Assembly (NCBI GenBank): GCA_036583965.1
Contig: JAZBQD010000005.1
Location: 371,718 to 435,717, forward strand
From: Prunella strophiata
Lineage: Eukaryota > Chordata > Aves > Passeriformes > Prunellidae
Length of the DNA stretch: 64,000 nucleotides
Reading direction: 5' to 3'
Shown piece by piece: positions 1,551 to 42,559 of this stretch (its first letter is position 1; each line of letters begins with the position of its first letter). Below the pieces are notes generated by a model. It had not been told where the DNA came from, searched no databases, and saw nothing but the letters and a program-made list of their open reading frames with translations. Position numbers and translations under genes: made by a program.

Positions 1551-1700
1551 GGGAAGGGAAGGGAAGGGAAGGGAAGGGAAGGGAAGGGAAGGGAAGGGAA
1601 GGGAAGGGAAGGGAAGGGAAGGGAAGGGAAGGGAAGGGAAGGGAAGGGAAGGGAAGGGAAGGGAAGGGAAGGAGGAAGGGAAGGGAAGGGAAGGGAAGGG
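1551..1700. repeat. (GGGAA)n microsatellite
   Basis: About 30 near-perfect pentamers, broken once by GGAGGAA at 1670. A long polypurine tract on the plus strand, antisense to SLC4A8. Confidence 0.97.
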
Positions 1701-2127
1701 ATTTGGTTTTACTTCTCATGATCCTGCTGTGGTTTTGTCAGTAATAAATTCAATTAATATCCCTAATTCCAGCCTGTTTTCCCGTTATCATGATTGATGA
1801 GGGATCCATCCCTGTCCTTATCTCAAGCCATGAACCTTTGGTCTATTTTCTCTCCAATCCAGCTGGGAAGGGCAGGGATGGACCAGCTTTGGTGGGATCC
1901 AGCCAGGATCCCTCTCACTACAGAGGGTCTGGAGGACACCTGGGAATTAAGGGATTTGTCTTGTTTGCTTGGCTTGAGCACCCCAAGCCAGGTCTGAAGG
2001 GCTGGAAAGTCACCAAGGCTGGTTCCCATCCTGGCTTTGGCGTCACCTCCTGGGGGAGAGAGGCCCTGATTTCGCATCCCCTCCCAAACTCCTGTGGGTC
2101 ACCAGGGGGTTTCCATCCCACTCTCAC

Positions 2128-14100: not shown

Positions 14101-17100
14101 TCCTGCAGCTGGGAAAGTTGCAGAGAACAGGGACTCCTCTGCCACCACAGCTGGCAGCAGGCATCATGGAATCCTGGAATATCCAAACCACACAGAACCT
14201 CACCTGCCTCCAAGCCCTGCAGAACCTCACCTGCCTCCAAACCCCTGCAGAACCTCACCTGGTTCCATACCCTGCAAAACCTCATCCGGCTCCATACCCT
14301 GCAGAACCTCACCTGGCTCCAGGCCCCATAGAACCTCACCTGGCTCCAAGCCTTGAAGGACCCTCACCTGGCTCCAAGCCCTGCAGAACCTCACCTGCCT
14401 TCTCAAGCAGCTGGAAGGGACCCACAAGGATCACAGAGTGCAACCCCTGGCCCTGTGCAGGGCATCCCAACAATCCCAATTAAAGCTGTCCCTGGCCTCT
14501 GGAAACATGGAATCATGGAATATCCAGAGGTGGAGGGGACCTATGAGGATCACAGGATCATGGAAACTCTGGAATTGGGAGGGACCCACAAGGACCATCA
14601 AGTCCAACTTCTGGCTGAGGATAACCCCAGAAATCCCACTGACCCCCAAACCCCAATGTCCAAGCATTCCTTGACCTCTAGAACCATGGAATCTCCTAAG
14701 TGGGAAGAGACCTACAAGGATCATCAAGTCCAAATCCTGGCCCTGCCCACAAACCCCAAAATCCCACCCTGTCCCAGAGAGCTTTGTCCAAACGCTCCTA
14801 GACCTCTGGCAGCCTTGGGGCTGTGACCATTCCCTGGGGAGCTGTTCCAGTAGGGGAAGAACCTTTTCCCAGTATCCAACCTAAACCCCTCCTGACACAG
14901 CTTCCTGCCATTCCCAAATCCCAGGGATTTATTTACCTAGCTGTCTCCTTCCACTCAGCATCTTCCCCCTCCTTCACGCAGATCTCGTCCAGCTCCGTGA
15001 ACAAGTCATGGGGGACATGCTGCTCATCCTCCTCCGTGCCCAGGATGAACTGGACGCGCTGGGATGGGGTGTCTAGGGACAGGAGGAGATTCCCCATCCC
15101 ATTACTGAGCCTGGAGCCATCCCAGCACACTCACATTCCAATGGCATCACACTGGGACCAGCCCAGCCATAAATGCTGGGCTGGCTCCTCTCCCACGGAT
15201 CTCTCCAGGCTCTCACAGAGCCACGGGGAAGGTGAAGCCCCCATCCCAGGCTCCATAAGGATGGGCTGCTTTCCTTCCCCACACCTCCATCTTTACACCA
15301 GGATCCCTCAATCCATTATGGATTTAACCCCAAAACCAGAGAAAAGTTTGGGAAAAGGGGAGTCTTGCTTAAAAAAAATCCACTTTTCCTCGGTAAAACA
15401 GCCACACAAAGAATCCACAGGGACCTGGTTGGGGAGTGCCGTGGTGGCCACCCCAGCAGGACTTACAGTGGTCTCCCTGCTCGGCGGGGACCGGGTCCTT
15501 CTCCCGCTCCCGTTTCCGGTGCTTCTGGCTGTGGGCGCGGTGGTGCCGGTGGCTCTGGCGCACCAGCGGCATCCGCACGCCCACGTACAGCGTCCGGTGG
15601 CCTGGGGAAATGGGGATGGTGGGAATTATTGGGGGCTCAGACTGGGAAAACGGGGATGGTGGCAATGGTTGGTGGCTCAGACTGGGAAAATGGGGATAGT
15701 GATAATGGTTGGTGACTCAGACTGGGAAAATAGGAATTATTGGTGGCTCAGACAGGGAAAATGGGGATAGCGACAATGGTTGGTGGCTCAGACTGGGAAA
15801 ATGGGGATGGTGGGAATTATTGGCAGCTCAGACAGGGAAAATGGGGATGGTGGCAATGGTTGGTGGTTCAGACTGGGAAAATGGGGATGGTGACAATGGT
15901 TGGTGGCTCAGACTGGGAAAACAGGGATGGTGGGAACTATTGGTGGCTCAGACTGGGAAAACGGGGGTGGTGACAACAATTGGTGGCTCAGACTGGGAAA
16001 ATGGGGATGGTGGGAATGGTTGGTGGCTCAGACTGGGAAAATGGGGATGGTGGGAATGGTTGGTGACTCAGACTAGAAAAATGGGGATGGTGGGAATTAT
16101 TGGTGGCTCAGACTGGGAAAATGGGTATGGTGACAATGACTGGTGGCTCAGACTGGGAAAACAGGGATGGTGGGAATGGTTGGTGGCTCAGACTGGGAAA
16201 ATGGGGATGGTGGGAATGGTTGGTGGCTCAGACTGGGAAAACAAGGAAGGTGGGAATTATTGGTGGCTCAGACTGGGAAAATGGGGATGGTGGCAATGGT
16301 TGGTGGCTCAGACTGGGAAAATGGGGATGGTGACAATGGTTGGTGGTTTAGACTGGGAAAACAAGGAAGGTGGGAACTATTGGTGGCTCAGACTGGGAAA
16401 ACGGGGGTAGTGACAATGGTTGGTGGCTCAGACTGAGAAAATGGGGATGGTGGGAACTATTGGTGGCTCAGACTGGGAAAACGGGGAATGGTGGGCAATG
16501 GTTGGTGGCTCAGATTGGGAAAACGGGGATGGTGGGAATGGTTGGTGGCTCAGCCAGCGCAGCCACCCCAGGAGGAAGCCACGGAGTCAGGGAACCAAAC
16601 CATTCCATGATTCTCCTCAGTGGAAAGGGTCATCAAGGCCCCACACAGAACACCCCAAAATCCCACAGCCACTTCCACTAATGTAAATTTCAGTGGATCC
16701 CTGACTTTCCCAGACTTGTCCTTTTTTCCAAGCCTGTTTTACTCAAGCTTCACACCAAGGAATGGTTTGGGGTCACCTAAAAGTGCCCTGAAAGCACCAA
16801 ACTCCTTCTCAAATTCCAGCTTGGGATGGACAACAACACCACCACCAACCCTCAGATTTGCTCATTAAGCAGGAGATAATACAATAATTATAGTTTTGAA
16901 ATCTTTTTATGGCAGAAGGTGACAAGGAAAAATCAAAGGAGCCCCATGATGATGAACCCCAGGAGGAAAACTGAGAATCTGCACCACATCAAATGATTCT
17001 CCTGCCCTCTCCAAGCTGGGAGCAGCTGCTTTGGGAAAGGCAGATGGGAATTATCCAACCCCAAGGACACATTTCACACCAGGGCCTCCACCAGGGCTTT

Positions 17101-20100
17101 AAAAGCCATCGTATTAAAAAACAGATCAATATTTTGATACTTAATCAAGAACCACAAAGGTTTTGCTGCTCTTGATGTGATACCAGGCAAGGGACATTGC
17201 AAGGGCTTTTTCCCCAGGGTCTGGTGGCCCCTCCAGCAGGATCCCAACAGGATCCCAGCAGGATTTCAGCAGGATCTCACCTTCCAGCTCCTCCTTCTCA
17301 TAGTGGATGTTGACCACATTGCTCGTCCTGCCCTGGTCAATCACGGCCTCCTCGTCGTGTCTCTAATGAAGGGAAGGGAGAAGAAGATAATGAAGAAGGG
17401 AGAATTTGGGGATGGGTCTGTGGAGCTGCCTCCACCCTCCCTGTCTATCCACCATTCCCTGAGGATCACAGCTTCTCCTCCAGGCACAGCCCAAAAACCA
17501 AGGACTTGTGGAAGGTTCTTTTCCCATTCCCAAATAAACTCATCTGTGTTGTACACAATGGGAGTCTGGAAGGGTTAGTGTGGGGGGAGAGGAACTTCAG
17601 ACCCAAATTTGGGCATTTCAGACCTAAAAATACCTAACCACCTGCTTTGTTTTTGTGGTTCATTTCTTGAAAAAGAAAAAATACACAGGGATTTCCAAGC
17701 TGGGGGAAAAGAGCCACTTTTGGTCTCAGGGTGGTTCCTGCAGGACTCCCTGGGTGGCTCTTGGCCACAGGATGTGGCCACCAATGACCTCCAAAAGCCC
17801 TCAAGGTCCTGCAGAGGCTCGGGCTCCCCTTGGTGCGAGTTCTCATGGAAAACAGCATTTCCCATCTTTTCACTGAGATTTCTGAGCAACCTGTGGGAAG
17901 TATCCCTGTCCATGGCAGAGGGGTGGAGCAAGATGGTCCATTGGTTTTCCAAATCAAACCATTCCATGATTCTTTTATGCTTCTAATACTAAAGGAAAGA
18001 TGTCACCACTGCTCACCTTCCCCTTCCTTGTGCCCCCAGGCAATCCAAGAAAACCAAAATCCCATCATCTTTGCAAACAAACACCCTGCAATGCCCAACA
18101 ACCCATATTTCCCATCAGTTTCCCAATTATTCATCATTTAAAGGCTCAAAGGAAAGGTTTGGGATGATTGAGTGGATGAGGTTCAACCTCATCTTGATGC
18201 CATCACGGCGACAGAAAACAATTCAAACAACAAAAACCACACTGAGATTTTGATTCCTGAAACTGAAGGTGGAAAAGGAGCAAAATCCTGAGAGAACTGG
18301 GGGAACTGGTGGGGCTGCTGGATGAAATTCCAGGAGCAAGAGCTCCCCCATGCCTGGGGAACCAGCTCAGAGCAACCACAGCTGGAATTTGTAAGGAAAG
18401 TTTCCAAAGCCACTGGGCAGAGGCTGCCCTTGTATTGATAATGTTGCCATGAGGTCATTGGAAAATTGAGAATAAATAATGGATTATGATTTCAGCTGGA
18501 ACAACTCTCAGAGAATCTGCTCCCCCAAATTCCTGCTTTAACCAAGGGATGGAAAACCTTTGGGTCCCAGGCACTGGTGAGGTGGATGAGGAAGAGGAGC
18601 AATCATTCCCTCTGGGGATGATTGCTGGTCTCTGAACACCAATCCCTGAGTTCACTGTTGCTCCCTCTGCCTGCTCCTGGACTTGCCCACATTGCCCAGC
18701 AGCCAGATTTTCCTGCACCAGTGGCTCTTCCATCCTTGCTCCAGTGACATCCATCACCACCCTCCTGCCCTTCCCAGCACCCTGCTCCCTCCAGGGCTGC
18801 CAAAACCCCAACCCTGGAAAAGGCACAGGGTGAGAGGGCTCAATACATCACAATTTAAAATGGGAATTTTAATAAAATGGCAAATTTGAGCACACCTGTG
18901 GCAGTGGGAGCAAACAGGGATTTGGGAGTGGCAGATTCAAACCTCCCACTGGTGACAGAGGCAGCCTTTCTCCCCAAAAAAACATTTTGTCAAACCTCCC
19001 CTCCTGCACTCCAGGGAAGCTCCGGCAGGATTTGGGGGAGTTTTCCCTCCATCAGGGGGATGCAGAGCCCCCAGCAGAGCCTCTGGGATTGTCCCAGAAA
19101 GGGTCACATTGTCACTGCTGTCACCTCGTGGGTCCCTTCCTATTCAGGACATTCCTTCATCCTCATGTCAGGCCCTGGTTTTGGGGGACTCCAGATGGAT
19201 CAGGGGGTCACAGCCCCTCAGGACAAGGTGGCACCTTGTGTCCCTCAGCTCCAGAGATAAAAAGGGATGGGATCAGAATCCAGGGTGCTAACCCAGGATT
19301 ATTTACAGCCACTCTCCTCAAAACTCTGCACATTCAGAAAACACTGTGGAGGAGAAGAATCCAACTCTGTTTTAAGGAAAATTCTGCAGAATGGGGTGAA
19401 AACACCACATCCTGCCAGGGGAAGGACAATCAGCATTTGGGTGAATTTTAAACACAAATTCCCAAAGAGCAAGTGAGGTACAAACTGTCAGGAAAAGAAA
19501 CATCATGGGCAGGGCTGGTTTCCATCCAAATTTCCTGCAGAAAGTCAGGGAATTCCTGGAAGGTCTCGCTTTGGCACAAGCCCCATCCTGTGGGGGATCC
19601 TCATCCGGCAGAGCCAGTCCTGCCACGGGACAGAGGCTCCGGACAAGCCCCATTTTTCCTCTCCTCCCTCTCCAGCTCTGCCTGACTTCCCGAGCTGAGC
19701 TAATCTGGCATCTCCCTCCTCCAGACTCGTTTGCTTTAATGAGTTCCCTCCCCGGCGCCGCCGGACTCGAAGGTCACCTGCCCGGAAAGGTGACCCGGGT
19801 GTCAAATGACCCGGCCGGGAAGGTGACACCGAGCGCTGGGCAGGGAAAATCCCGCCGGGACCCAAGCTCGGAGCCCCACTGAGCGTTATTAACCAGGATT
19901 GAAGCTCCAGGAGCTTCAGGAGGGGCAGGTGGGGACCTGTGGGTCCAGGGATGCTCCAACATCCCCGAAATCACACCCAGGGAAATGCTGCCCCTCCAGA
20001 TGCCCCAGCCCCACTCGGATGGACTGGGAGGGGTTGTTCCCCCGAGGACATTCGAGGGGATTTAAGGACTTTACAGCCGTGGAGCCGTGGGTTTGGGATG

Positions 20101-22070
20101 GGGTGGAGCAGGAAGGGGGATGCTCCAAAGCACGAGTTATCCCAGGACACCTGGATGGGTACCAGCCTTCCCTCTCCATCCTCCTGCACTGCCAACAGCC
20201 TGGGAAGCATCAAATCATCCAAACTGGGCTGGAAAGGGGATGCCGAGCTTGGCATGGCTCACCCTGGAGTTTCAGAGCAGCCAGAGTTGTTCCAATTTGC
20301 TGTTTTCTAAGGAAAAACTCAATTTGGCTGCCTGGAAGTTGTTTTCTGGGGAGACTGAAAGGAATTGTTGCTACTAGGAATGAAATGAGGAATGGCTGGA
20401 GCAAAGCAGGAAAACCCATTTTAATCCCCCTCCATGTCACAAGCTCAGTGTGTCCTGTCCCCCTCTCCAAATTCATATTTTGGTGGGATTTTGTGCCCCC
20501 CAGAGGGATCTCTGGGGGTTCTGCCTCAGTTTCCCTGACTCCCTGCAACTCCTCAGGTTTGGAAAGAAAAGCTCCTACTCTGGGGATGTTTTGGGGTAAT
20601 TGAGGACAAGGAAAAGCTCCAAGCAGAGGCTCAGGACCAGCCCTGAGCCCCCTTGGTCCCCAGCCCAGGACACACCAGGAGTGGCCACCAGCAGCGCTGG
20701 GAGGATTGATGTCACTCACCCTGCCCGAGGTGTAATTAATAATTAATTAATAACTGACCCACTGTTCTGATGGGATGAGGGTAACAGGGGGTACCTGGGG
20801 GCTGCTGAGGTGGCAAAGAGACCCTCCCCTCACCCCTCTCCATCTCCCTCCTGCTGGACAAAGCCATCATCCCTGGGGTCCCTCGGGCTGTGTCACCCCC
20901 AGGGACCCCTCTGGCTCCTGGGGCAGGGGACAGATCTCCAGCCCCCACAATGGGGCTGGGGAGGGACCTGCTGGTCACACCCAGGCATCCCTAGGACACG
21001 ACGGTCACCAGTGCAGAGGGGACAGAAACTCCATTCACACTGCAATTTCCAGGCAGATTCATTAATTCCCCCCTGTCATGGTCACCCAGAGCAGCTCCGA
21101 CCTGTCCTGAAGGTGCGGGGCAGGGGGGACAGGGACAAGGAGACGCTGAAAGGGAGGGACAACCCAGGTGCCCCCTGCCCCCCTCCTGCCCTGGGCAGGG
21201 GGCACAAGCCCTGAGCCCCCCAGACAGTGGGGCTGGGACAGGGGGACAGGGACGGGGTGGCAGTGATGGGGGGACAGTGGCAGGGGACAGGGACAGTGGT
21301 GGGGGACAGGGACAGTGGCAGGGTGGCAGTGATGTGGGGACAGTGGCAGGGGACAGGGACAGTGGTGGGGGACAGGGACAGGGCAGGGTGGCAGTGATGG
21401 GGGGACAGGGGGGACAGGGTGGCAGTGATGGGGGGACAGGGACGGGGGGGACGTGGGGCTCTGCAGGGACAGGGACAGTGGCAGGGTGGCAGTGATGGGG
21501 GTAACAGTGACGGGGAGGGGACGGGGGGCGTGGGGCTCTGCGGGGACAGTGACAGGGGACAGTGACGGGGGGGACAGTGGCAGGGTGGCGTAGGGCTCTG
21601 CGGGGACAGTGGCCTTTGTCTCCTCTCCAAAGGGCCGATCGGGGGAGAGATGGGGCAGGAGGCAGGCGAGGCACATCCAGATGCAGACGAGGAGCCGGGG
21701 GGGCCCATGAGGACCCCCCAGCAGGCCCCACGCAGGTGCCCTCCCCCCCTTCCCCTCCCTCCTGCGCCCACCTTGAGCCCCTCTCGCCCTCCTTTACACC
21801 CCCCCTTTCAGAGGCCGGACTCCCACACCCCCGGCCCCAATTCACGGACACCTCCCCCCCCGCCGATGCCCTTCACCCCCCTTCGCACGCCCCTTGCCCC
21901 CCCCTTGCAGATTCCTCCCCTCCCCGCTCCCCGTTCCCCCCCCCTCGGTCGGAAATGCCGCAGTGAAGCAGCCGCGGAGCATCCTCCGGCCGCCCCGGGG
22001 CACCGGGCATCCCCCCCGGCCGCACCTGGTAGCTGAGGATGCCATCGGGCTCGTTGCTGCCGGCGGGCAT
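2128..22070 (-). CDS. SLC4A8: SLC4A8: electroneutral Na+-driven Cl-/HCO3- exchanger (3' exons lie outside the window)
   Basis: Plasma-membrane transporter that imports Na+ and bicarbonate in exchange for Cl-, regulating intracellular pH, mainly in neurons. Eighteen exons, in transcript order: 22070-22026, 17362-17281, 15601-15467, 15072-14937, 14012-13852, 9459-9410, 9300-9143, 8806-8719, 8125-7979, 7823-7732, 7255-7081, 6818-6685, 5831-5586, 5502-5397, 4408-4247, 3637-3524, 3078-2917, 2379-2128. All have AG/GT borders and compatible phases and give 815 open codons (human protein about 1093). The start [15 protein letters not shown] matches SLC4A8. The cytosolic domain includes [15 protein letters not shown] and [14 protein letters not shown]. 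Transmembrane exons include [32 protein letters not shown] and [22 protein letters not shown] and NLT sequons lie in the extracellular loop at 5502-5397. Residues such as PTRDDRGW and YYCKC favour SLC4A8 over SLC4A7 or SLC4A10. The conserved 'DMVLDQQ' exon expected between 13852 and 9459 is not present. Exons encoding the last membrane spans and the C-terminal tail lie beyond position 1. Confidence 0.95.
7418..7600. repeat. pyrimidine-rich minisatellite (CCCAGATCTCCCACCTTCC)
   Basis: About nine imperfect units of 18-26 bp between SLC4A8 exons 7255-7081 and 7823-7732. Confidence 0.8.
9590..9985. repeat. minisatellite, about 30 bp unit (GGAGAAACCTTCACCTGG)
   Basis: About 13 degenerate copies upstream (in the sense direction) of SLC4A8 exon 9459-9410. 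No exon is visible inside. Confidence 0.85.
10211..13622. repeat. 3.4 kb tandem array, 22-23 bp unit (AGAATATTCTCC + T5-6ACTGC)
   Basis: About 150 head-to-tail units in an SLC4A8 intron. Units differ mainly in having five or six T, with occasional loss of a T in ATATTC. The last 250 bp alternate with a variant (TTCCC, ATTGC), a dimeric higher-order pattern. Long open frames through it are by-products of the unit and not genes. Confidence 0.98.
14200..14395. repeat. minisatellite, 27-28 bp unit (CTGCAGAACCTCACCTGG)
   Basis: Seven copies in an SLC4A8 intron. Confidence 0.9.
14400..14935 (-). mobile_element. degenerate CR1 fragments in an SLC4A8 intron
   Basis: Repeated GGGACCCACAAGGATCA / CATCAAGTCCAAC blocks and CCCAGTATCCAACCTAAACC are reverse-strand CR1 3' sequence, possibly two or three tandem partial copies. 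Confidence 0.65.
15602..16552. repeat. 40-bp minisatellite, about 24 copies
   Basis: The unit contains GGTGGCTCAGACTGGGAAAA followed by TGGGGATGGTGGGAATGGTT. It abuts the acceptor of SLC4A8 exon 15601-15467, whose polypyrimidine tract and CAG are the first, diverged unit of the array. Confidence 0.95.
17980..20740. other. SLC4A8 first intron, no feature recognised
   Basis: The intron between exons 22070-22026 and 17362-17281. Ordinary single-copy sequence; a moderately CpG-rich patch lies at 19740-19870 without an identifiable gene. Confidence 0.5.
21235..21620. repeat. G-rich minisatellite (GGGGACAGGGACAGTGGCAGG)
   Basis: Degenerate units of 12-33 bp on the plus strand, inside SLC4A8 intron 1. 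The many G-runs could form quadruplexes. Confidence 0.85.
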
Positions 22071-26245: not shown

Positions 26246-28942
26246 CTACTCCAGCAGGTGGAGCAGCAGGTGATTCAGATATTCCACGTGTCCTTCTGCC
26301 CCCGAGGGGGGAATCTCCTGGCACAGCTCGCAGGCTGGGGCAGCCTCACCTCTGGGGCTGCTCCCCAGCATCCCCTCCTCCAGCACCCAGCCCGGAGTCC
26401 AGCAGGTCTGTGAGGAAAAGAGGGGTTTGGGGACAGAAATATGGATGTGACAACCTGGTCAGAGAGTGAGAAAACCAGGTAAGCTTTCCCAGAATCGGCC
26501 TGGGAGACTTTAGAGAGCTGGAGATAAACAGTGATATCCAATAATTAAAAGCAACCTGCAGGTGTTGTTTTCCTACTGTCTATTTCCTTCTTATTCTCAA
26601 AGGTTGTTCATAAAAGGGTGTCTTGTTAATTAGCCAATCAGGTTAAATGTATGAACTAAATGACCAATCAAGTCCACCTGGATCAGAGCAGTGTATAAAA
26701 AGGAGCAGTCTGAAATAAATGGCACTTTATGCCAATCAGCCTTCTGGTGAGTTTGTGTCATTTCTTACTAAAAGGTGACACAGAGAGACCCTGAGGAATG
26801 CCCTGGGACAGCCCCCAAAACCTGACCCCACCCAAAAAGGGCTGGGCTGGAGCTTGAGAGATCCCCATCCTCCATAAATCCCACTGGACAATCCCATGTC
26901 CATGTGGCTCCCAAGCCTCCCCCAGCACTTCCCACCAGCCAGACCAGGAGGAAAATTTGAGTAGCAAAGTGGAACACATTTGTCACCTGTCCCCCTGACA
27001 TTTGAGCACTGATGGGGCCTCCCCAAACAGATGCAGCCCCACTTCCCCCTTCTCCTGTAAAAACTCCCTCCCAAATACAGCCCAAAAGCAGAGTTATCCC
27101 CAGGAATACCCAGCCCCTGAAGCCATTAAGGGATTTTTAAGAGCTTCATTTAGGAAAAGGAATGAAAGAAAATGGGTTTGGCATCCCAGGGATCCTGGGT
27201 GGGAAGGCCAGCATTGGGGTGAAGGTTCACCAGGAGGCCTGAGGAGCCAGAGTTCAGGGCAGTCTTTAGAAATCCTTTTAAATTACAGGAATCATTTGGA
27301 ATTATTTGGAAATATGTTTTGGGGTATGGAGATCAGAGAGAATGAAGGAAATACTTTAGAGCTGTTTAATTGGAAGATTCAAAGGAGGTTGAGAGAACTT
27401 CCCCTCCAAGGGATGCCCAAACCCTCCATGAGGATCACGGGAGGGATGTCCTGGACCTCAGGGCCTTTCCCATACCCAAGTCCCCTGGGAACCAGAAAAA
27501 TGGGTTCCCAGAGACTTTTTAAGGAAATAACCCCACTCTGCCACACTTCCCATGTGTCCAGGGCTGATGGAGAGGAGGGTGAAGTGTCCCTGATGCCATG
27601 GACCAAATTCCCCAAAGCCTCCCCAGTTACCTTCACGGGTCCTCGGATCTCCACCAGAGCCACGTCCCTGGGAGCCTCTTCCCTCTCAAGCACTTCTGGG
27701 GCTTCGTAGAGATCCAGAAGATTTGGGAAGGAGCCCCCAGCCCCCTGGATTCAGTGTCTCCAGCTCCTGAGGGCTGCAGGGAGCTCTCCCTCCTTCCCAG
27801 GGGACGGGGAGGATCCAGGTTCTCCTTGGGGAGGGCACTTCCCCCTTCTCCCCCTCGGTGCTGCCAAGAGCTGTGGCTCCTGTGCCATGCCCAGGGCTCA
27901 GGGGGAGCCTGTTGGTGGCCCAGGGCTGTCCCATGGGACAAGCAGAGCCCTCCAGGTGGGATGTGGAGGATGTCAGAGCTCCTGGGTGGTTTTGGTGGCT
28001 CTCAGGTGACCTTTGCCCATCCCCTGTCCCCACGTCCTCCGTGCACTGGACAGGCAGCGACACCGGGATGTCTTTGGGAGAGAGAGAGGCAGAGGGGTCA
28101 TTCCTGGCAATTCAAAGGGGTTTTTTTTTTTTCCTCTTTCCATTGCTCCATTTTCTTGTTGGGCTTGGGGAACCCCTGGGCTGGCAGAGCTCACCTGTCC
28201 CCTCTGGAGGCTGGGCCACCAGAGAAAGGACACTGAGGACAGCCAGGGAGGGCTGGGGGTGGGGGACCATCATCTCCCTCAGGAGACCAGGACATCCCTG
28301 TGTCCCCAGACCCCAGGTTCATGCCAGGAAAGGCTTTGGTTTAAGTCCTGGTTTATCCCAGGAAAGGCTTTGGCTCAAGTCCTGGGAGGACACAGGTGGA
28401 GAGGAGGGAGCCCCAGGACAGGGAGGCTGCAGTTTCCCAGCACAGCTTTGTCCAAACTAATCCCTCCCAGCCACAAAATTCCCATTTTAGGGTTGGGAAA
28501 ATGGTGCCAGACCCCATGGGAGTGCTGTGAGTGTTTGTGGGGGGAGAGGAGAGTACAGAGAGAGGGATCCTTAGAAAACCAGAGGGTTCCTGGGTGTTTT
28601 CTGGGCTGTAGATCCTCCCCAGCCCTGCTCCCACCCTCTCCAGGTGATGCTCCCAGGACCTGGAGTGTCCCTGAGCAGTGACACCCAAAGCCACGATGGG
28701 CTCAGTGCACGTTCCTGCTCAAAGCCCCTCCACCCCACCAGAGGAACTTCTGAGGGCCCCGGGATGAAGGTGGGAACGACCCAAATGTGCAGTCTGGGGA
28801 CCCTGCAGGTCCCACTCACCCAGGACAGGTCCCTTCCTGGCTCTCAGCCTCTGGAGGAGCCTCCCCTGCTCCGAGCACAGCTCCCGCAGCCTGGCCACCT
28901 CCCCCCAGAGCTGCAGGAACACCTCCTCCATCTCCATCACTC
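26246..28942 (-). CDS. TANK-like adaptor: TBK1-binding helix, TRAF-binding motif and zinc finger (candidate TANK ohnologue)
   Basis: Three coding exons. Exon 28942-28820 has an ATG at 28937 in good Kozak context. It encodes a heptad helix beginning MEMEEVFLQLWGEVARL; its E..F..L..E......L...Q...L..L pattern lines up position by position with the TBK1/IKKe-binding helix of TANK. Exon 28071-27631 starts DIPVSLPVQCTEDV; PVQCTE corresponds to the TRAF-binding PIQCTD of TANK. It ends SFPNLLD...EIRGPVK, resembling TANK SFPLLD...IRGP. Exon 26407-26246 is joined in phase and ends in a zinc finger, CELCQEIPPSG...LNHLLLH, with the same C-x2-C...H-x3-H spacing as the TANK finger, three residues before the TAG. 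Within the middle exon the frame changes once (near 27734-27745): one base too many in a G run, or a small unrecognised intron. Without that base the protein would have 239 residues, against 425 in human TANK. I found no N-terminal coiled-coil exon. Role inferred by homology: a scaffold linking TRAFs to TBK1/IKKe. Confidence 0.75.
26563..26780 (+). mobile_element. short LTR-like fragment
   Basis: About 218 bp with TGT...ACA ends, two CCAAT boxes (near 26633 and 26661), a TATA box TATAAAAAGG (near 26693) and AATAAA (near 26716): the order of a retroviral U3-R. No clear target duplication. It lies in the last intron of the TANK-like gene, antisense to it. Confidence 0.4.
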
Positions 28943-28949
28943 CTGGGCA

Positions 28950-30460
28950 GGGGGGACAGAGGGAACAACCACCTGGTAACAGCAATAAGAATCAAATAAT
29001 CATATTAATAATCATCCACTGGTGTTATCCGAGGGCAGGAGGAGCTGCCAGGGTCATCCCGAGCTGCTGGGATGGGGAGGGTCAGGTGCTGCAGGTGTGG
29101 GGAATTGCACAGAGAGAAGCAAGAGAAGCAATCCAAGTTCTCTCATCATTTTGGGGAAAAAAAAAAAAAAAAAAAGGAAGAGATTCTTCCTAAGACGAGC
29201 TGAGCTGGGCTTTTCCACCTCTCCCCCACAGCTTCCACGAGCTCCAAGCAACACCAAAAAATCCCATTTAGTAAAAAAATCTACCTGGAAAAAGTTGTGT
29301 TTCCAACTCAGTACCAAAGGATCGAATTTTTTGGGCATGAGACCAAAAAAACTCCCAACAAACCCATCCAAGGAATGATGTCCATGGGTGGGGACACAAT
29401 TCCATTTTTTGAGTGGCTCAGCCCCTTCTCCTCCCAAAAATACCCCAGGAAGCACCACCCAACATCAATTAACCAAATATTGGCATTATGGAGGAAAATT
29501 GCTTTCCCCAGATTTGTCCCCTCTTTAACAGCTGTATTATGGATTAAACTTCCCAGTTTTCCCATCTTGCACCAATTATTACCGGGCGAAAAGATAATAA
29601 ATAAACCCAAAGCTGGGCACAAATCTGCAAACCATCTGCAAAGGGGATCTGAAAGGTTCGCGCGATCCTAATTAGCATAAGTATGCAAATCAGCCTGGCT
29701 TCCTGTCAGCTCCTCCAGGTTTGCTGCCGCTCAGCGCTGCGAGTTTCAGCTCGGCGTTAAATTTAAGCCCTGGCTCAAATTAGGGGTTTGGCGGGAGGGT
29801 TGGATGGAGCCGCCTCCGACGCCGTGGATTCCCCGGGAGGGATGAAGGGCAGAAATCCTGGAGGAAATGCACTTGGAGAGAGGAAAACCTCGGAGGCAAT
29901 GGTAAGGTTTGCTCCCAGTGCGGGAATTTCGGTGCTCGCCCCACACCGAGGGGTAACTTCACCCCACTTTTGGCTCCTTGGGGTCCTCTGCTCCTGAAAA
30001 CCTTAAAAGTAAATATTTTTCACCCCCCCCCCAAGGCAGCCAACTCCACCTCTAATTCAAGTTTTGTTTTGCCTGAGAGTTGTCTATAAAGACGCCAATT
30101 AATTATTAATTGGAGTGTGACACCGAGCCGCCACTCCCTAGCAAGCCTGGGAAGATTTTTTTTATGGATTTCATTCCGTTCCTGCTGGGCTCTTCGGGTC
30201 TCGACTCCTTCTCATTTCCCCCAGACTGGTGCCACCAGGACGAAGCCGCAGGAGATTTTTAATGTCCCAAAAAAGCCTCTCCTCTCCCAAACTGCAATTA
30301 AAAGCAGCAATTTGGGAGCACAAAACTCCCGTTTGCGGGGTTGGCAGAGCGGCTCGAGGGGCAGAGCCCGGCTGGGGGAACGGGGCAGGTTCAGGTCACC
30401 CAAAATCCCATCCCCACTACCCGGCGTGGACCCCAAAACCCTTCTTTTTCCCCCAAAAGT
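28950..30460. other. intron or 5' region of the TANK-like gene, no further exon identified
   Basis: Searched on the minus strand for an N-terminal coiled coil like that of TANK; none found. It holds an A-run at 29156-29175 and an octamer-like ATGCAAAT (29683-29690). Confidence 0.45.
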
Positions 30461-30467
30461 GACTTAC

Positions 30468-30535
30468 CGCCGTGGGGACCGTCCTGGCCCTGCGCGGTGG
30501 CCGCGGTGACGCCGAGCTGAGAGCGGCGGGTCCTG
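30468..30535 (-). other. candidate 5' non-coding exon of the TANK-like gene
   Basis: On the minus strand a strong donor (GTAAGT) begins at 30467, and a TTTCAG precedes 30535. The next good acceptor on this strand that leads into recognisable coding sequence is at 28943. No open frame here joins the TANK-like start in a convincing way, so I read it as leader sequence. Its 5' end may lie further up, inside the kappa-B/IRF region. Confidence 0.4.
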
Positions 30536-30660
30536 AAAGTCGAGCAGCAGCAAATTTGGGGGTGGGAATTTCCCCTTCGGGTTTTTGAGCGAAGAGCGAA
30601 ACCTGCGAAGCAGGAAACGAAAGGGGAGAGAGCGACAGCATCGAAGCGAACTCGGAAAAG
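30536..30660 (-). promoter_or_regulatory. putative immune-responsive promoter with kappa-B and IRF sites
   Basis: GGGAATTTCC at 30564-30573 is a perfect NF-kappa-B consensus. GGAAACGAAAG at 30613-30623 contains the IRF core AANNGAAA. Both lie just upstream of the candidate first exon of the TANK-like gene, whose family acts in NF-kappa-B/IRF signalling. The motif matches are direct; promoter activity is inference. Confidence 0.45.
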
Positions 30661-31059
30661 CCCCGGGGAGGGCGATGGAGGCCCCTGGGGGCTCATGGGG
30701 GCCGAGGGTTGGCTCCAATCGGTGCCTCAGTTTCCCCTCACACCCTATTCCAACTCAGCGCTTTAATTCGGGGGTGAGGGGTGTTTGTGCCCCAGAGACC
30801 TCATCCCCTGTAAACCAGTTAATATTCCAACTAATATCCCAATAATCCCCATTAATCCTCGCTCTGCTCCGGCTCAAATCTCCCAAATCCTCCGCACAGC
30901 GCCGGAGCCAAAGGAAAATCCTGGGCTGGGTGAAGGAGCCCGGCCGGGCCCGTCCCTCCGGGGCTTTTCCCGTGGCCATCCCTCTTCTCCCAGCGCGCCC
31001 AGTGCCAGGCGCTTACTGGTCCCAGTACACCTGGAGCCGTGACCTTGGGACCTCCGGAA

Positions 31060-31435: not shown

Positions 31436-31494
31436 GCATTCCCATTTCAGGCGCGGGGCCGGCCGGTGGCTCCAGGCCCCGGCGTTTTCCCCCA

Positions 31495-34739: not shown

Positions 34740-37700
34740 ATGAGGCTGTTCCGCCGCCGCTACAGCACCTTGAAGGTGGCCTTGGCGGGCGCCGTTTTCG
34801 TCCTCTTCCTCTTCATCCTCCAGAAGGACGTGGGGAGCAAGGAGCCGGGCGAGGAGCCGTGGCTGCGGAACATCGTGCAGGGCAAGGGCCAGGTGCTGGA
34901 CCTGATGCTGGGCGCCGTGCGGGACCTGCGGGACTCGATGCCGCGGCTGCAGATCGGGGCCCCGGAGCCGCCGCCGGAGCCGCTGCCCAGCGCCCGCTCC
35001 TGCCTGCCCGGCGTCTACACCGCGGCCGAGCTGCGGCCGCTCATGGAGAGGCCCCCCCAGGACCCCGCCAGCCCCGGGGCCGACGGAAAAGCCTTCAAGA
35101 AGGATCGCTGGACGCCCGAGGAGACGAAGGAGAAGGAGCGGGGCTATGAGAAGCATTGCTTCAACGCCTTTGCCAGCGACCGCATCTCCCTGCAGCGTGC
35201 GCTGGGCCCCGACAGCCGCCCCCCCGAGTGAGCGCCGGGCCAAAACCCCCTGGGGCCACCGACTCCCTTAAATGTGGCCACCGACTCCCTAAAGTGTGGC
35301 CACCGACTCCCTAAAGTGTGGCCACCGACTCCCTAAAGTGTGGCCACCGACTCCTTTAAATGTGGCCACTTATCCCTTAAATCTGGCTACTTACTCCCTT
35401 AAACTGTAGAGGAAATAAAAGCAGATTGGGGCCAGGATGTCACCCAGCACTGGCAGAGGATTGAATGGAGACAGAGCTAAAAAAAAAAAAAGAAAAATTA
35501 TTTATTATTATTTCTCCCTAATTTTGGCCCCTTGGGGGCGGGTTTAATGGCAGCAGGCTCTTTGTGTCTCCCCGTACCTGCTTGGTGGCTGTGGCACCTC
35601 CCCGCCTTTCCCTCCTCTCCCTCCTTTATTCCAGCGGCTCCAGCGGTCAGACTTTTTCTTTTCTTAGCCGAGTGGAACAGCCTCGGACCCCGCTGGGGCG
35701 GGGGGGAGGGAAGCAGGGAAACTCCGGAGATTTCCCCGCCTGCCCTCGGCCAGGGGCTGCCGGATTAAAGCGGGGCCCGCGCGGAGGGGTGGGATGGGGG
35801 AGACATGGGGGGAATTCGGGATGGAAAAAGCCTTGAAAGGGATGGAGGAATCCAGCCCCCCGCGCTGGCAGGCGATTATCCGTGCTTAGCAGGTGTAGCG
35901 GTGACAAAGGGGGGACACGGAGGCCGGGAATGGGACTCACTCAACCAAAATCAATGGGAATCAAAGCAGGGACGAGTCCAGAGGGGCCAGAGCTGCTCCC
36001 CCGCAGCTGTGGGGTTCTGGGGGGGGAGGGATATCAGGGGGTCACTCCAGTCGTGCCTCCCCCTTCATCCCCTCCCCATTCTGTCCCCCAGGTGCATCGA
36101 CCAGAAGTTCAAGCGCTGCCCTCCCCTCCCCACCACCAGCGTGGTCATCGTGTTCCACAACGAGGCGTGGTCCACCCTGCTGCGGACAGTCTACAGCGTC
36201 CTGCACTCCTCCCCGGCACGGCTGCTCCGAGAGGTCATCCTGGTGGACGATGCCAGCACGGACGGTGGGTGGGGGACACGGGGGTGCAGGGAGCATGGGG
36301 AGATGTGGGGTCAGAGGGGGGCAGGGAGCATGGGGAGATGTGGGGTCAGAGGGGTGCAGGGAACATGGGGAGATGTGGGGCCAGAGGGGAGCAGGGAGCA
36401 TGGGGAGATGTTGGTCAGAGGGGAGCAGGGAGCATGGGGGAATGTGGGGTTAGAGGGGAGCAGGGAGCATGGGGAGATGTGGGGCCAGAGGGGAGCAGGG
36501 AGCATGGGGAGATGTGGGGCCAGAGGGGGGCAGGGAGCATGGGGAGATGTTGGTCAGAGGGGAGCAGGGAGCATGGGGGGGCCAGAGGGGAGCAGGAGCC
36601 CTGGTGGAAAGCAGGAGCCAGAGGGACACAGGGTCAGAAGGATGCTGGAGCCATGTGGGATGTGGATGCCAGAGGGATGCAGGAACTATGGTGGGATGTG
36701 GGGCAGAGGGGTGCAGGAGTTCTGACAGGATATGGGATCAGAGGGGTGTGGGAGCCCTGGTGGAAAGCAGGAGTCAGAGGGGTGCAGGAGCCATGTGGGA
36801 TGTGGATGCCAGAGGGATGCAGGATTTGTGATGGGATGCTGGAGCCACATGGGATGTGGATGCCAGAGGGAGGTAGGACAAGCTGTGCTGGGATGTGGGA
36901 GCAAGAGGGATGCAGGAGCCACAGGGAGCAGTGGGGGTATTCGGGGGGCAGAGGGAGGCAGGATCCGTGGCAGGATGTGGGATCAGCAGGATGCAGGGGA
37001 TACCAAGCCCCTTTCCAAGCCTGGAAGCAGCAGCTCTGAGCACTCAGAGAAGCGGCTCACACTCCCAGCAGCCGCTCCCCTGTTTCACATCCACCCCAGA
37101 GCACCCCTGGGATTTTCCCTTCCCCAGCACCGCTGCTAACCCTGCCCTGGGGACAAACCAGGTGCCCCACAAACCTCCACCCTCAGCCAGCTGTAATCCT
37201 CGTTAATTAGCACCCAGAGCTAATTAACGCAGGGTTCAGTGTCGGGGCACTGGGAGGAGTGGACTTTGCCCTTGTCCCAGATAAATTCTCCCTTTCCACC
37301 CACGGGCTCCCGAGGAGCAGGAACCTCGTGGTGCCCCAAGGCTCCACTGCCCCAGAGCTCGACTCCCACTGTGGCTGGATGGGGGTTGGACTCGGGGCCC
37401 CTTCCCAGGACACTTTTCTCGGGGTCCCAGCTCCCACTTGGCCATTTCCAGCTCCTGGCTTGGCTGCATCTGCCAAGAAATCCCAGGTTCCTCTGGTGAC
37501 CCCACATCTGCCGTCCCTTCCCTCAGGAACAACTTGGTCCTGGTGCCACTTCAATCGCAGGGATGTGACCTCCTCACCCTGTCAACCCCCAGTGCCTCTT
37601 CAGAGAGGGATTAGACAGGAGGGGGCTTCAACCCTTATAAAACTCATTTTCTTTAGCCAAAAATACACTTGGGTTTGGGTCAAAGGCTCACGTGTCCCTG

Positions 37701-40700
37701 AACCCAAACGGGATGGGATGGGATGGGATGGGATGGGATGGGATGGGATGGGATGGGATGGGATGGGATGGGATGGGATGGGATGGGATGGGATGGGATG
37801 GGATGGGATGCAGGGACTGGCACCTGCCTCTCTGATGGATCTGGATGCTCTTCCCACCCGCAGAGTACCTGAAGGAGGAGCTGGATCGCTACGTGGAGCA
37901 GCTGCAGATCGTGCGCGTGGTGCGGCAGCGGGAGCGCAAGGGGCTCATCACGGCACGACTGCTGGGGGCCAGCGTGGCCAGCGGGGAGGTGCTGACCTTC
38001 CTGGATGCCCACTGTGAGTGTCCCCGCCCCCGTGACACCCTGTGACACTGTGAGTGTCCCCCCTGTGCCCCCGGGCGCTGTGAGAGGCGCTGTCCCCGCT
38101 CCAGCCCTGCCCCGTGTCCCAGGCGAGTGTTTCCATGGATGGCTGGAGCCGCTCCTGTCCCGCATCGCCGAGGAGCCCACGGCCGTCGTGAGCCCCGACA
38201 TCGCTACCATTGACCTCAACACCTTCGAGTTCTCCAAGCCTGTCCAGAACGGGAAGCAGCACAGCCGGGGCAATTTCGACTGGAGCCTGACTTTCGGCTG
38301 GGAGGTCGTTCCCGCGCGGGAGAGGCAGCGCAGGAAGGATGAGACCTTCCCCATCAAGTAAGCCCAGCACGGGGCTCTATCCACCTGAGTTTACTCTTTT
38401 TTTCCAACAATTTGGTGTTTCCCTTGGGTTTGGTGCCTCCGGGCGGGCGGTGCTGCCCCTTCCCAGTGAGGTTCTCCCCCGGGATTTTGGTGTGGGAGAT
38501 GTCGGGAGTTTGTGCCCGAGCAGGTCAGAGCTGTGGGGGTGGTGGAGGATAAACCTCCCTTGGGGAACGCGGGGCCAAAAGGGACCTTGGAATCGCCTCC
38601 GGCAGAGCCGCCCATTAAGGATTTAATTGCTGTCTGTGCCTTCTCACTCCCCGTGCCCAGGTGCCCCCGCACAGAACAGGTCACCTGTGGATCAGGCTGC
38701 ACCAAAATCCCTCTTCTTATCCCTGTGTTTTACACGCAGACAGAGCCTGGGTGGGTTTCCCACTTCCCCCAGGAGACACCGGACACCCCGCCCGGCCCGG
38801 CCCCACCCCGGCCGCGGGGCTGCCTTTGTGCACGGGTCACCTGGGCGACGCTCCTGTCCCAATAAAGGCCCCTTTCACCTCCAGCCGGGCACTTGGCTCC
38901 CGGCGGTGCCTCGTCTCCAGCAGCTCAGCGAATCCTCGGGGTTTATTATTTTTCCTGAATAAAAGCGAGGTTCTGTTCCAGCCTCAGATGGAAAAGATTA
39001 GGGAAGCGGGAGGAGGGAGTGGGGCACCGAGCTCTGACCTCCTCCTCTTTTTGGCGACAGGTTTTTGGTAACAATATCCTTTTTTCACTTTGAATCCAGC
39101 TGGCAGCGAGGCCCCTCCGTGTCACGCTGTCACCTCTGTCCCCTCCCAGCAGCCAGGCCACCAAAGCCACCCCAGCTGGATGGAGGGGGACTCTCATTTT
39201 GGGGCTGTGATGTCCCAAAACTCAGATTTCTGTTATTTTATTTGTGTTTTACCCCTTCTTTGCCCCTCTCAGGTCCCCGACCTTCGCAGGTGGCCTCTTT
39301 GCCATCTCCAGGTCCTACTTTGAGCACATCGGCTCCTACGACGACCAGATGGAGATTTGGGGGGGTGAGAACGTGGAAATGTCCTTCAGGGTAAGGACAG
39401 GGGTGGCCCCTTCCACGGGCACCTCCAGGGAGCTCCCTGCTGGGGGGCCCGGGGGCTGGACCCCCCCACCTCAGGTGTGGCTTCCTCGCAGGTGTGGCAG
39501 TGCGGGGGACAGGTGGAGATCATCCCCTGCTCCGTCGTGGGCCACGTGTTCCGCTCCAAGAGCCCCCACACCTTCCCCAAGGGCACCCAGGTGATCTCCC
39601 GGAACCAGGTGCGCCTGGCCGAGGTCTGGATGGACGACTACAAGGAAATCTTCTACCGCAGGAACCAGCAGGCTTCCCAGATGGCCAGAGAGGTACCGGC
39701 CACGCTGGGGCTGCTGCTTCCACCGGCAGGACTGGTCCTGCTGGGAGCTGCACCTGAGCAAGGGGAGGGGGTGGGAAACCAGACAGGTGGACAGAAATAG
39801 CCAAAAGCCTTTTTGTTTTCTTTCCCCATTCTGGCCAGAATGTTTGCTAGTAGGAAAACATTGGAGTTTATGAATTTTTTTTCTCTCTCCTTTTATTTTT
39901 TTTTACACAAAACTTGTTTTTATTTTCTTTTTTCAACACCAAAACTTCTTATTCTTTGCCAAAATATCCCCAAGCTCTTGGTGGAGCCTGTGGGTTCCTG
40001 CCAGGTGACCCCCCCACCTTGTCTCGGTGCTTGTCACACCATGAGGGATGATGAAAAAGCTGGGGCGACTCCCAGCTCTGAGCCCCAGCTCGGAAAGGGA
40101 TTTTTGGGGATTTTCCCTACTGTTTTCTGAAGTGAATTTAATTTTCGCCTCTGATTTCATTTTTCAGAAGACGTTTGGTGACATCACGGAGCGGCGCAGG
40201 CTGCGGGAGCGGCTGCACTGCAGGAACTTCACCTGGTACCTGCAGAACGTCTACCCCGAGATGTTCGTGCCCGACCTGACCCCGACGTTCTACGGAGCAG
40301 TGAGTGCCGGGACGGGCGGGGCACGCCGGGCTCGGGACAGCCTGGGGGAACTGCCCCAAGGTGGGGTTTGGGGGCTTGGCATTAAACCGGGGAGGGGGAG
40401 CCGCTGCCAGTCTGTCACCGTGTCTGTCACCGTGTCTGTCACCCTGTCTGTCACCTCATCTGTCACCGGCTGGCGGGGCCGGTTTGCACTCCAGCTAAGC
40501 CTGGAATCCGGCAGAGCTGGTTTGGGGTGAGTCCCAGGGAGGGGAACCCGTGGGGATGTGGATTTGGGTTAAACTCGGGGGAAGAGCTGAAAAGTTCCCT
40601 GAGCCCCAAACACCGTCCTGGCACAGGGAGGGCTGGGAACAACTGAGCTGGGGGATGGGATGTGGAGCTCCATCTCCATCCTGAGGGGACCTGGAGACGG

Positions 40701-42559
40701 GTGGGAGGCAGGACCCCTGTGTCCAGGTTCTGGGCCCCTCAGCTTAGGAGGGACGTTGAGATGCTTGAGCGTGTCCCAAAGGAGAGCAACGAGGCTGGTG
40801 AGAGGCTTGGAACACAAGCCATATGAGGAACGACTGAGGGAGCTGGGGCTGTTTAGCCTGGAGAAAAGGAGACTCAGAGGTGACCTTATCACTCTCTTCA
40901 ACTTCCTGAAGGGTGGCTGTGGTGAGCTGGGGGTCAGTCTCTTTCTCTGGGCAACAACAGATAGAACAAGGGGACAAAGTCTCAAGCTGTGCCAAGGGAT
41001 ATACAGGCTAGAATTAAGGAGGAAGTTTTTCACAGAAAGAGTGGTCAAATACTGGAATCATCTGCCCAGGGAGGTGGTGGATTCACCATCCCTGGATGTG
41101 TTTAAAAAAAGACTGAATGTGGCATTTGGTGCCATGATCTAGTTGAGGTGTTAGAACATGGGTTGGACTCGATGATCGAAAGATCTCTTCCAACCTAAAA
41201 ATTCTGTGTGTGATTCTGTGTGTGACCCCGTCTCCAGCCACCCATCCACAGGGAAGTGGAGACAGGCAGGATGTGGCGGGCTGGCTCTGTCCCTGAGGGA
41301 GTTGGGGACAGCAGGACACGGAACTGTGGCTGCATCCCCGAGGAACTGAGGGCAGGCAGGATGAGGCGCTCCAGCTCCATCCCTGAGGATGGGATTCCCC
41401 TAAGGCAGGAAAAGCCCTTTCCCTCCAGCTGGGTGTTGGAACCTGAGTCTGCCCCTCCTCAGCCAGGGCGATGTGACAGCAGCTGGCACGGCCAGCACCC
41501 AGCCAGGTGACAGCCAGCTGACAGCCGAGTGCTGGGTGCTGGCTCCCATCCAGCTTTTCATTCACCTTTATTTCCTGAAACCCCAACCCGGGTGCCTTTC
41601 CCTTTGCCCCATGTGCCGGAGGCGAAGGCTTGGGCGTTCCTCGTGTCCTGGAAAGGACACGGGACCCGGAGCCGGTGCTGCATGCCGGGATCGTGTTTGC
41701 ACTGCGATAACCCAGAGCCCTGCGCAGCCAAACCCGTGCCGGTCCTAGCCCGGCTCCTGAGCCCTTCTTTCCTCCACTCTCCCGACCTTTTTCCTCACTC
41801 CTTCCCCTTTTTCCTCCTTTCCCCCCTCTCCTCACCCCCGTTCCCATCTCCTTTTCCCCCTCTTTCCCTCTCTTTTCTCTCCCTCGTTTTTCTCCCCGCT
41901 CTTTTTCCCAACTCTTTTCCCCTCCCAACTCCTCTCTTCCCCCCACGCCACAGATAAAAAACGAGGGCACCAAGAGCTGCCTGGACGTTGGGGAGAACAA
42001 CCACGGTGGGAAACCTCTCATCATGTACCCCTGCCACGGGCTGGGGGGCAACCAGGTGGGCCCCCCAAAGCACCCCCATCATTTCCCCCTCTGCCGCCCC
42101 CCGGTTTTCCCGCGGGGGTCAGCTCGGGGGGCGCGGCAGTGACGGTTCCGTTGGCTCTTCCTGCAGTACTTTGAGTACACGAGCCAGCGGGAGCTGCGCC
42201 ACAACATCGGCAAGGAGCTGTGCCTGCGCGGGGGCTCGGGCACGGCCGAGCTGGGCGAGTGCCAGTTCCGAGGGAAGCCCGGCCGGGTGCCCGCCAGCGA
42301 GGAGTGGGACCTGGCGCAGGTGAGGAGACCCCTCCGTCCCGGGAATCGCCCCCGGGCACGGCGGCATCGTGCCCGCCACGGCGCCGCTCCTCCGGCGCTG
42401 TTTCCCCGCGGTCGCTCATCGATCCCTTGGGTTGTTTCTCGGCAGAACCGGCTGATCAAGAACTTGGCCTCGGGGATGTGTCTGACGGCCCGGGGGAAGC
42501 ACCCGGCGCTGGTTCCCTGCGACCTCACGGACCCGCACCAGCTCTGGTCCTTCACCTAA
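34740..42559 (+). CDS. GALNT6: GALNT6: polypeptide N-acetylgalactosaminyltransferase 6
   Basis: Golgi enzyme that transfers GalNAc from UDP-GalNAc to Ser/Thr, starting mucin-type O-glycans. Coding exons: 34740-35227, 36092-36264, 37864-38013, 38123-38357, 39273-39390, 39492-39692, 40168-40299, 41954-42055, 42167-42319, 42446-42559. All borders are AG/GT and phases agree, giving 621 codons (human 622). It is a type II membrane protein: short basic [10 protein letters not shown], then a membrane anchor (about residues 12-28), a stem, and the catalytic domain. The GT-A core shows [17 protein letters not shown], the metal-binding DAH in [13 protein letters not shown], and the Gal/GalNAc-T segment [17 protein letters not shown] followed by VVGHVFR. 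The C-terminal ricin-type lectin domain starts near [19 protein letters not shown] and ends DPHQLWSFT, with a QXW-type motif. Sequence and neighbours both support GALNT6 rather than GALNT3. Introns carry a CR1, a GGGAT microsatellite and a 32-bp minisatellite. Confidence 0.97.
35255..35400. repeat. minisatellite, 22 bp unit (TGGCCACCGACTCCCTAAAG)
   Basis: Six copies directly after the donor of the first GALNT6 coding exon. Confidence 0.9.
36270..36600. repeat. minisatellite, about 32 bp unit (AGCATGGGGAGATGTGGGG)
   Basis: Ten copies directly after the donor of GALNT6 exon 36092-36264, followed to 37000 by a more diverged related repeat. Confidence 0.9.
37711..37812. repeat. (GGGAT)n microsatellite
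   Basis: Twenty uninterrupted pentamers about 50 bp upstream of GALNT6 exon 37864-38013. Confidence 0.97.
40700..41225 (+). mobile_element. CR1 LINE 3' fragment in a GALNT6 intron
   Basis: Reads as the 3' end of a CR1 reverse transcriptase frame ([18 protein letters not shown], then [20 protein letters not shown]), followed by GGTTGGACTCGATGATC and the short ATTCTGTG-type terminal repeats at 41202-41221. A classic 5'-truncated avian LINE. Confidence 0.9.

Follow-up and report, generated by a model that had tools for sequence, protein, structure and literature searches.

The window, a stretch of 64,000 nucleotides of Prunella strophiata DNA, holds three minus-strand exons (28937-28820, 28071-27631, and 26407-26246) that lie between SLC4A8 and GALNT6 and give a product of ~239 aa when a frameshift is read through. 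An earlier note on this DNA had placed a TANK-like gene between these two neighbors, and tblastn with human SLC4A8 and GALNT6 sequences bore out that position; to judge by these two queries and by exon order, the flanks are probably SLC4A8 and GALNT6 themselves and not paralogues. The features of the locus are:

512..22064, minus strand: SLC4A8, collinear coding exons covering residues 4-923 of the human protein (tblastn, human SLC4A8)
26246..26407, minus strand: coding exon 3, with TCWTPGW..., the C-terminal finger, and the stop codon (from the sequence and the alignment of relatives)
26258..26332, minus strand: C-terminal finger CELCQ-x(15)-H-x3-H (from alignment with the TANK finger)
27631..28071, minus strand: coding exon 2, with the TRAF-type motif, a variable middle, LLDLYEAP, and VEIRGPVK (relatives align along its length)
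27631..27654, minus strand: VEIRGPVK, counterpart of the TANK IRGP segment, at a phase 0 donor
27686..27750, minus strand: region shared by the two open frames found in exon 2, a G-rich stretch with the frameshift inside (frame B is open from 27750, and frame A reaches its stop at 27686)
28037..28054, minus strand: PVQCTE, a TRAF2/3-type motif (position counted on the sequence)
28820..28937, minus strand: coding part of exon 1, with the start codon and a TBK1-binding-type helix (phase 1 donor; conserved in relatives)
30468..30758, minus strand: 5' exon, probably untranslated (5' end approximate; donor GCG/GTAAGT, the slash marking the splice point)
34740..42556, plus strand: GALNT6, collinear coding exons (tblastn, human GALNT6)

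Gene model and the frameshift in exon 2

The three proposed exons and their junctions, 28820/28071 and 27631/26407, hold on the sequence, as does the claim of good splice sites (donors G/GTGAGT and AAG/GTAACT; acceptors CCCAAAG/A and CCTCACAG/A). Exon 1 has two candidate acceptors, which set its 5' edge at 28972 or 28942. The gene model can be extended by a 5' exon ending at 30468, in the upstream part of the interval first outlined, 26246..30660: the Oenanthe model P0020 and the Corvus model P0009 both align to 30468..30758 and then run into the TBD exon. In addition, full-length frames were found on short contigs, namely P0049 (96 member sequences, longest contig 2481 b) and P0021 (contig of 1385 b), and these look like spliced transcripts.

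The window copy of exon 2 carries a one-base frameshift, and the protein is whole only with read-through. Exon 2 carries PVQCTE in one frame and SFPNLLDLYEAPEV..IRGPVK in another, so a plain spliced reading ends early. The splice phases had been said to fit, which is correct locally (exon 2 is entered in phase 1 and left in phase 0) and fails overall, given the shifted frame. Relatives in other birds read through this region unbroken, so the frameshift reflects either a mutation at this site or a fault in the assembly; we consider the latter probable. It is fairly unlikely that a TANK-type gene that is real in birds generally has decayed into a frame-shifted pseudogene in P. strophiata, as the frameshift itself and the broken finger of several lineages might suggest. 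Against this, the gene retains an intact start and stop, intact splice sites at both internal junctions, and intact motifs. There are also signs of an imperfect assembly close by: no match was found for SLC4A8 residues ~211-275 despite the lack of an N gap there, and a 1.5-kb inverted copy (97.5%) lies across the N gap.

We regard as negligible, and have rejected, the possibility that the frames are open by chance or belong to SLC4A8 as its 5' exons. The Limosa model P0070 bears the database name "electroneutral sodium bicarbonate exchanger 1" (SLC4A8), yet it is an exon-2 frame that continues into the intron, a passage also seen in P0066, P0068, and P0073. The locus has a start and a stop codon of its own, relatives from amphibian to bird have full-length frames, and matches were obtained in both protein searches. 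The data show a real gene, its conservation, its motifs, and its position.

Motifs and kinship to TANK

From its N-terminus, the protein has a TBD helix, PxQCT(E/D), an IRGP...W segment beyond a disordered middle, and a finger of the form C-x2-C...H-x3-H; the motifs follow the TANK order, as the earlier note had described. The exon 1 frame matched Pfam TBD (PF12845) at E=1.3e-4 with 22.2 bits, short of the 27 bits set by the curators, and a Pfam scan of the three other frames gave no match. Among 16 relatives chosen from 76, all matched this domain at E<=0.01 (best, 9.9e-12), and P0023, with 36 bits, exceeds the Pfam cut-off of 27. AlphaFold2 predicts a helix at residues 2-33, with a pLDDT of 80-93 over residues 1-30 and values mostly <50 in between (mean, 50.8; 18 of 271 residues at >=90). 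In the PDB, neither the protein nor the 16-sequence profile had a sequence match at E<=10.

PVQCTE, which we take to belong to the TRAF2/3-type motif class PxQxT, is similarly conserved: of the 76 relatives examined, 52 have the TBD pattern together with IRGP, and all 52 contain PxQCT. Within the helix, L10, L17, L28, and L31 have the same spacing as L226, L233, L244, and L247 of NAP1 and are invariant in all 16 chosen relatives; outside that set, L31 is Met in P0063 and L27 is Ile in P0008. In the account given in PMC5027247, substitution of Gln for NAP1 L226, L233, or L244 greatly reduced or eliminated TBK1 binding, and L247 is described as the ninth layer.

The finger likewise has the spacing claimed for it, as the alignment with the TANK finger has no gap between the Cys and His pairs. 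The pattern is present in the window copy and in 38 of the same 52 relatives (TBD pattern plus IRGP). The remaining 14, which include models from crocodilians, turtles, parrots, and some passerines, comprise four truncated or alternative models and ten with a degenerate or absent finger. The TAX1BP1 zinc fingers gave the best profile resemblance to the finger but at E values of 0.07-0.3, and we discounted them as evidence; the TANK profile alone gave an E value of about 0.1.

A profile search against TANK, AZI2 (NAP1), and TBKBP1 (SINTBAD), the comparison proposed for the locus, ranked TANK far highest, placing the gene in the TANK family with TANK closest. The score against TANK was 104.2 (E=3e-14, 251 columns in order), whereas AZI2 scored 36.8 and TBKBP1 33.4, both over the TBD region only. 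The best of 100 column-shuffled TANK profiles scored 27.3. With the TBD and TRAF motif removed, TANK still scored 66.9 against a shuffled maximum of 25.2 (n = 100), and single sequences kept the ranking (TANK, 92.1; AZI2, 33.6). At the level of sequence comparison, the homology to TANK shows through the profiles, whereas tblastn of human TANK against the window gave no row of >=25 bits. A tree of the TBD alone groups the gene with the long-branched TBKBP1 (93/42) and not with TANK; we flag it as unreliable. Its 56 columns are too few, and 5 of 39 rows were dropped where the anchor pattern was unmatched.

The gene and TANK share the TBD, the IRGP...W segment, and the C-terminal finger in the same order, a PxQCT(D/E) motif at a nearly equal distance, and, in the caecilian and Chelonoidis copies, F(D/N)(I/V)K(F/Y)PP. 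They differ in length (about 226-333 aa in full-length relatives versus about 425 in TANK), in the finger, which is degenerate in several lineages of the new gene, and in the N-terminal coiled coil of TANK, which is missing from the new gene: caecilian, turtle, and crocodilian models begin at the TBD. Because of the missing coil and the other locus (SLC4A8-GALNT6 versus TANK-PSMD14-TBR1-SLC4A10), we rejected TANK itself and filed the gene as a paralogue. TBKBP1 likewise has the TBD, and the tail of one TBKBP1 sequence matches as a related C-terminal finger (E=9e-5), but there is no profile match beyond these two; AZI2 shares the TBD with the same four TBK1-contact leucines but matches only there and just after, without a C-terminal match.

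Distribution and origin

Searching with the read-through protein placed 59 of 988 scored proteins at E<=1 (closest, E=2.2e-127), and a wider search with 7991 scored proteins gave at least 76 at E<=10. The relatives include ratites (ostrich, kiwi), galliforms, passerines up to finches, Alligator, Gavialis, Chelonoidis, and Eretmochelys, as well as a caecilian, Rhinatrema (E=3e-40). Most are labeled "uncharacterized" in the database, and two are labeled "TANK-like." The suggestion that the gene was kept in birds is therefore too narrow, and we rejected a bird-only novelty, given the crocodilian, turtle, and caecilian copies. No mammal appeared among the named matches listed in either protein search (988 and 7991 scored), with which a loss in mammals would fit; no fish or squamate appeared among them either, and a 2R gene might predict some. 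The named matches of the last protein search were all mammalian among the best 120 of 1118, a scope too narrow to bear on a fish, squamate, or mammalian copy. We found no description of the gene among the titles and abstracts of the literature matches listed, and six of its LOC numbers returned no papers in a literature search.

The gene adjoins an SLC4A paralogue, which is SLC4A8 here and SLC4A10 in the TANK block, and this adjacency supports a fourth 2R ohnologue. We presume AZI2-SLC4A7-EOMES and TBKBP1-TBX21 arrangements as well. PMC13171375 lists DPP4, SLC4A10, TBR1, PSMD14, and TANK as flanking GCG. Its 2R ohnologue GCRP (glucagon-related peptide) is placed by PMC3679108 near HOXC13, with SLC4A8 as its chicken neighbor, and described there as absent from mammals. 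GCRP thus shares the neighborhood and the mammalian absence; it is a peptide hormone of unrelated sequence and serves as a precedent only. The idea of a TANK ohnologue stands with respect to closeness to TANK, the place beside SLC4A8, and 2R as the best reading; it needs revision in that the gene is not confined to birds, the window copy is frame-shifted, and the N-terminal coil of TANK is missing.

We consider it rather unlikely that the gene is instead a later, early-tetrapod duplicate of TANK (or TBKBP1) that came to lie beside SLC4A8 by chance. The lack of fish among the named matches listed and the TBD tree, whose 56 columns give no resolution, would be in keeping with such a duplicate; however, it would take a coincidence for such a copy to land beside a paralogue of the TANK neighbor SLC4A10, and in the account of PMC3679108 the same block retained GCRP, the ohnologue of GCG, which mammals lack. 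Most likely, the gene is the 2R ohnologue on the SLC4A8 (HOXC) paralogon, with the dating to 2R itself an inference. Overall, we hold it quite probable that the locus is a protein-coding short TANK paralogue, a fourth TBK1 adaptor of the TANK/AZI2/TBKBP1 family, most likely from 2R, with a window copy that is probably misassembled.

Proposed role in TBK1 signaling

From the motifs, we infer that the product may bind both TBK1 and TRAFs. The N-terminal helix would join a four-helix bundle by packing onto the coiled coil at the C-terminus of TBK1 or IKKe, and PxQCT(E/D), ~15 residues past the last contact leucine, would dock into TRAF2/TRAF3. The protein would tether the kinase to TRAF complexes and compete with TANK, AZI2, and TBKBP1 for the same site. 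Since the N-terminal coiled coil is missing, we postulate a small single-armed tether that may limit or retune TBK1 in interferon and NF-kB signaling, the direction of the effect being conjectural. The C-terminal finger would be an additional, optional arm; several lineages have a broken finger or none.

PMC3169550 presents three TBK1 adaptors in mammalian work, TANK, Sintbad, and NAP1, which form alternative complexes in distinct compartments. Tentatively, we raise the possibility that a fourth adaptor, lost by mammals, occurs in birds, crocodilians, turtles, and at least one amphibian: a natural TANK without the dimerization coil, acting as a competitor that caps or redirects TBK1/IKKe at TRAF complexes and helps set the interferon response. 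Birds are described in PMC7236763 as apparently lacking IRF3, PMC5426785 nonetheless refers to chicken IRF3, and the latter source also describes chickens as lacking RIG-I. If the proposal is correct, the gene would be an unlisted component of interferon and NF-kB control in birds and reptiles, whose pathway already differs. It would also fill the empty slot of the 2R scheme beside SLC4A8 and offer a natural test of the roles of the TANK coiled coil and finger.

A three-exon gene upstream of SLC4A8

Our reading of the sequence recovered three minus-strand exons at the coordinates proposed in the earlier note. Their splice sites are standard, and introns of 748 and 1223 bases separate them. The flanking genes were placed by tblastn, with human SLC4A8 and GALNT6 as the only queries from their families, and on this placement the gene is located upstream of SLC4A8 and on the same strand.

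Features of the locus (exons of the gene by sequence reading, SLC4A8 and GALNT6 by tblastn)
28937-28820, minus: exon 1, coding part
28071-27631, minus: exon 2
26407-26246, minus: exon 3, stop included
22064-512, minus: SLC4A8 exons, collinear
34740-42556, plus: GALNT6
44455: CELA1-like trypsin exon, beyond GALNT6

The human order also has CELA1 after GALNT6. Tandem arrays lie on both sides of the gene (25743-26202, 31065-31426, and 31474-31755; units of 31, 65, and 34 bases).

The splice phases had been thought to fit, and this held only in part: the splice sites are standard, but exon 2 is split between two open frames. The half carrying PVQCTE ends in a stop at 27686; the second half (SFPNLLDLYEAPEV...IRGPVK) opens at 27750 in a different frame, so that plain splicing would yield a truncated protein. 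The shift is located in a G-rich stretch, and the best relatives are unbroken at this point. Loss of the gene here is less likely than an assembly error, given that the assembly appears imperfect nearby. SLC4A8 residues ~211-275, which we take to be conserved, have no match at 9499-13853, where there is no N gap, i.e., the exon is either absent from the assembly or lost. In addition, a 1.5-kb stretch that includes the CELA1-like exon recurs as an inverted copy with 97.5% identity (43420-44959 versus 49519-51053) across a 500-N gap (48501-49000), which is probably an assembly artefact.

Relatives and affinity to TANK

Reading through the frameshift gives 239 aa from the three exons. Of 988 proteins scored in a search with this sequence, 59 had E<=1. 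The top matches came from Zonotrichia, Motacilla, and Serinus (83-84% identity); the nearest relatives are passerines. A profile search (21 rows) returned at least 76 proteins at E<=10 among 7991 scored. The named relatives include passerines, owls, a hawk, a falcon, a crane, shorebirds, cuckoos, a cormorant, a stork, an ibis, penguins, a mousebird, a parrot, galliforms, kiwi, and ostrich. Outside birds, they come from two crocodilians, a tortoise, a sea turtle, and the caecilian Rhinatrema bivittatum. The named matches listed from either search include no mammal, squamate, or fish; both searches detect only sequences sharing 5-residue words. Judged by these sequences, the gene is real.

Several relatives span all three exons in a single intron-free frame, such as P0049 (255 aa, a set of 96 sequences whose longest contig has 2481 bases) and P0021 (269 aa, contig of 1385 bases). 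Such frames on short contigs imply, as far as reading frames can indicate, that spliced transcripts exist in relatives. In P0066, P0068, P0070, and P0073, the frame continues directly past EIRGPxK, like unspliced DNA, and this read-through point corresponds to the donor in the window.

The proposal of a TANK-type gene was borne out by profile comparison with TANK, AZI2, and TBKBP1. A profile of 16 relatives picked from the 76 aligned in order over 251 columns with 14 mammalian TANK sequences (score 104.2, E=3e-14), versus 36.8 for 13 AZI2 sequences and 33.4 for one TBKBP1 sequence, both confined to the TBK1-binding domain (TBD). TANK controls reached at most 27.3 when column-shuffled (100 trials) and 14.4 when reversed; with the TBD and TRAF motif removed, TANK still scored 66.9, versus 25.2 for the best of 100 shuffles. 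Single-sequence comparison gave the same ranking (TANK, 92.1; AZI2, 33.6), and the TBKBP1 tail matched the finger only (34.7). On the strength of these scores, TANK is the closest to the new gene in preserved sequence. A tblastn search of the window with human TANK gave no row of at least 25 bits. Counter to the ranking, a TBD tree of 56 columns, flagged as unreliable, placed the long-branch TBKBP1 with the new gene (93/42); the new gene, TANK, and AZI2 formed separate groups in it.

Automatic annotation already includes the gene, with the right family name in two birds; our literature search gave no description of it among the matches listed.

Position within the TANK family

AZI2 presumably has SLC4A7 and EOMES as neighbors, and TBKBP1 has TBX21, an arrangement for which our literature search found no paper. 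Based on these presumed neighbors, the adjacent SLC4A8, the SLC4A10-TANK block by the glucagon gene, and the proximity of GCRP to SLC4A8, we place the gene in the HOXC-side slot of the family. In many vertebrates, the region downstream of the glucagon gene is reported to contain DPP4, SLC4A10, TBR1, PSMD14, and TANK (PMC13171375). GCRP, a reported 2R ohnologue of the glucagon gene, is near HOXC13 and, in chicken, near SLC4A8; the same source records it in chicken, anole, Xenopus, and several teleosts, and as absent from mammals and zebrafish (PMC3679108). Counting against this placement, fish and squamates are absent among the named matches listed, in a search that needs shared 5-residue words.

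Protein parts and a putative role

The exon 1 frame matches the Pfam TBD at E=1.3e-4 and 22.2 bits, below the curated cut-off of 27. Its residues L10, L17, L28, and L31, counterparts of NAP1 L226, L233, L244, and L247, are invariant in all 16 chosen relatives; P0063, a relative outside this set, has Met at the L31 position. In NAP1, L226Q, L233Q, or L244Q is reported to largely decrease or abolish TBK1 binding, and L247 forms the complex's ninth layer (PMC5027247).

Among the 76 relatives examined, 52 combine the TBD pattern with IRGP, and PxQCT(E/D) occurred in every one of these. In the remaining 24, the TBD pattern, IRGP, or both were scored as absent; among the seven of these that we read, P0008 and P0063 are near-full with one TBD residue changed, and P0066, P0068, P0069, P0070, and P0073 are partial or intron-reading. 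Of the 52, 38 have an intact finger pattern and 14 lack it (4 truncated or alternative models, 10 with a degenerate or absent finger).

TANK has an N-terminal coil, whereas the new gene does not (the caecilian, turtle, and crocodilian proteins begin at the TBD); it is a further TANK-family member without one TANK feature. Since TANK, Sintbad, and NAP1 are reported to compete for a common site, the TBK1 coiled coil (PMC3169550), a coil-less protein with a TBD and a TRAF-type motif would most simply act as a competing, single-armed tether, its binding being putative. The AlphaFold2 model is confident for the first helix only. P0071, P0072, P0074, P0075, P0057, P0009, and P0017, which are models from crocodilians, turtles, a parrot, Corvus, and Hirundo, have a degenerate or absent C-terminal finger but keep the TBD pattern and TRAF-type motif.
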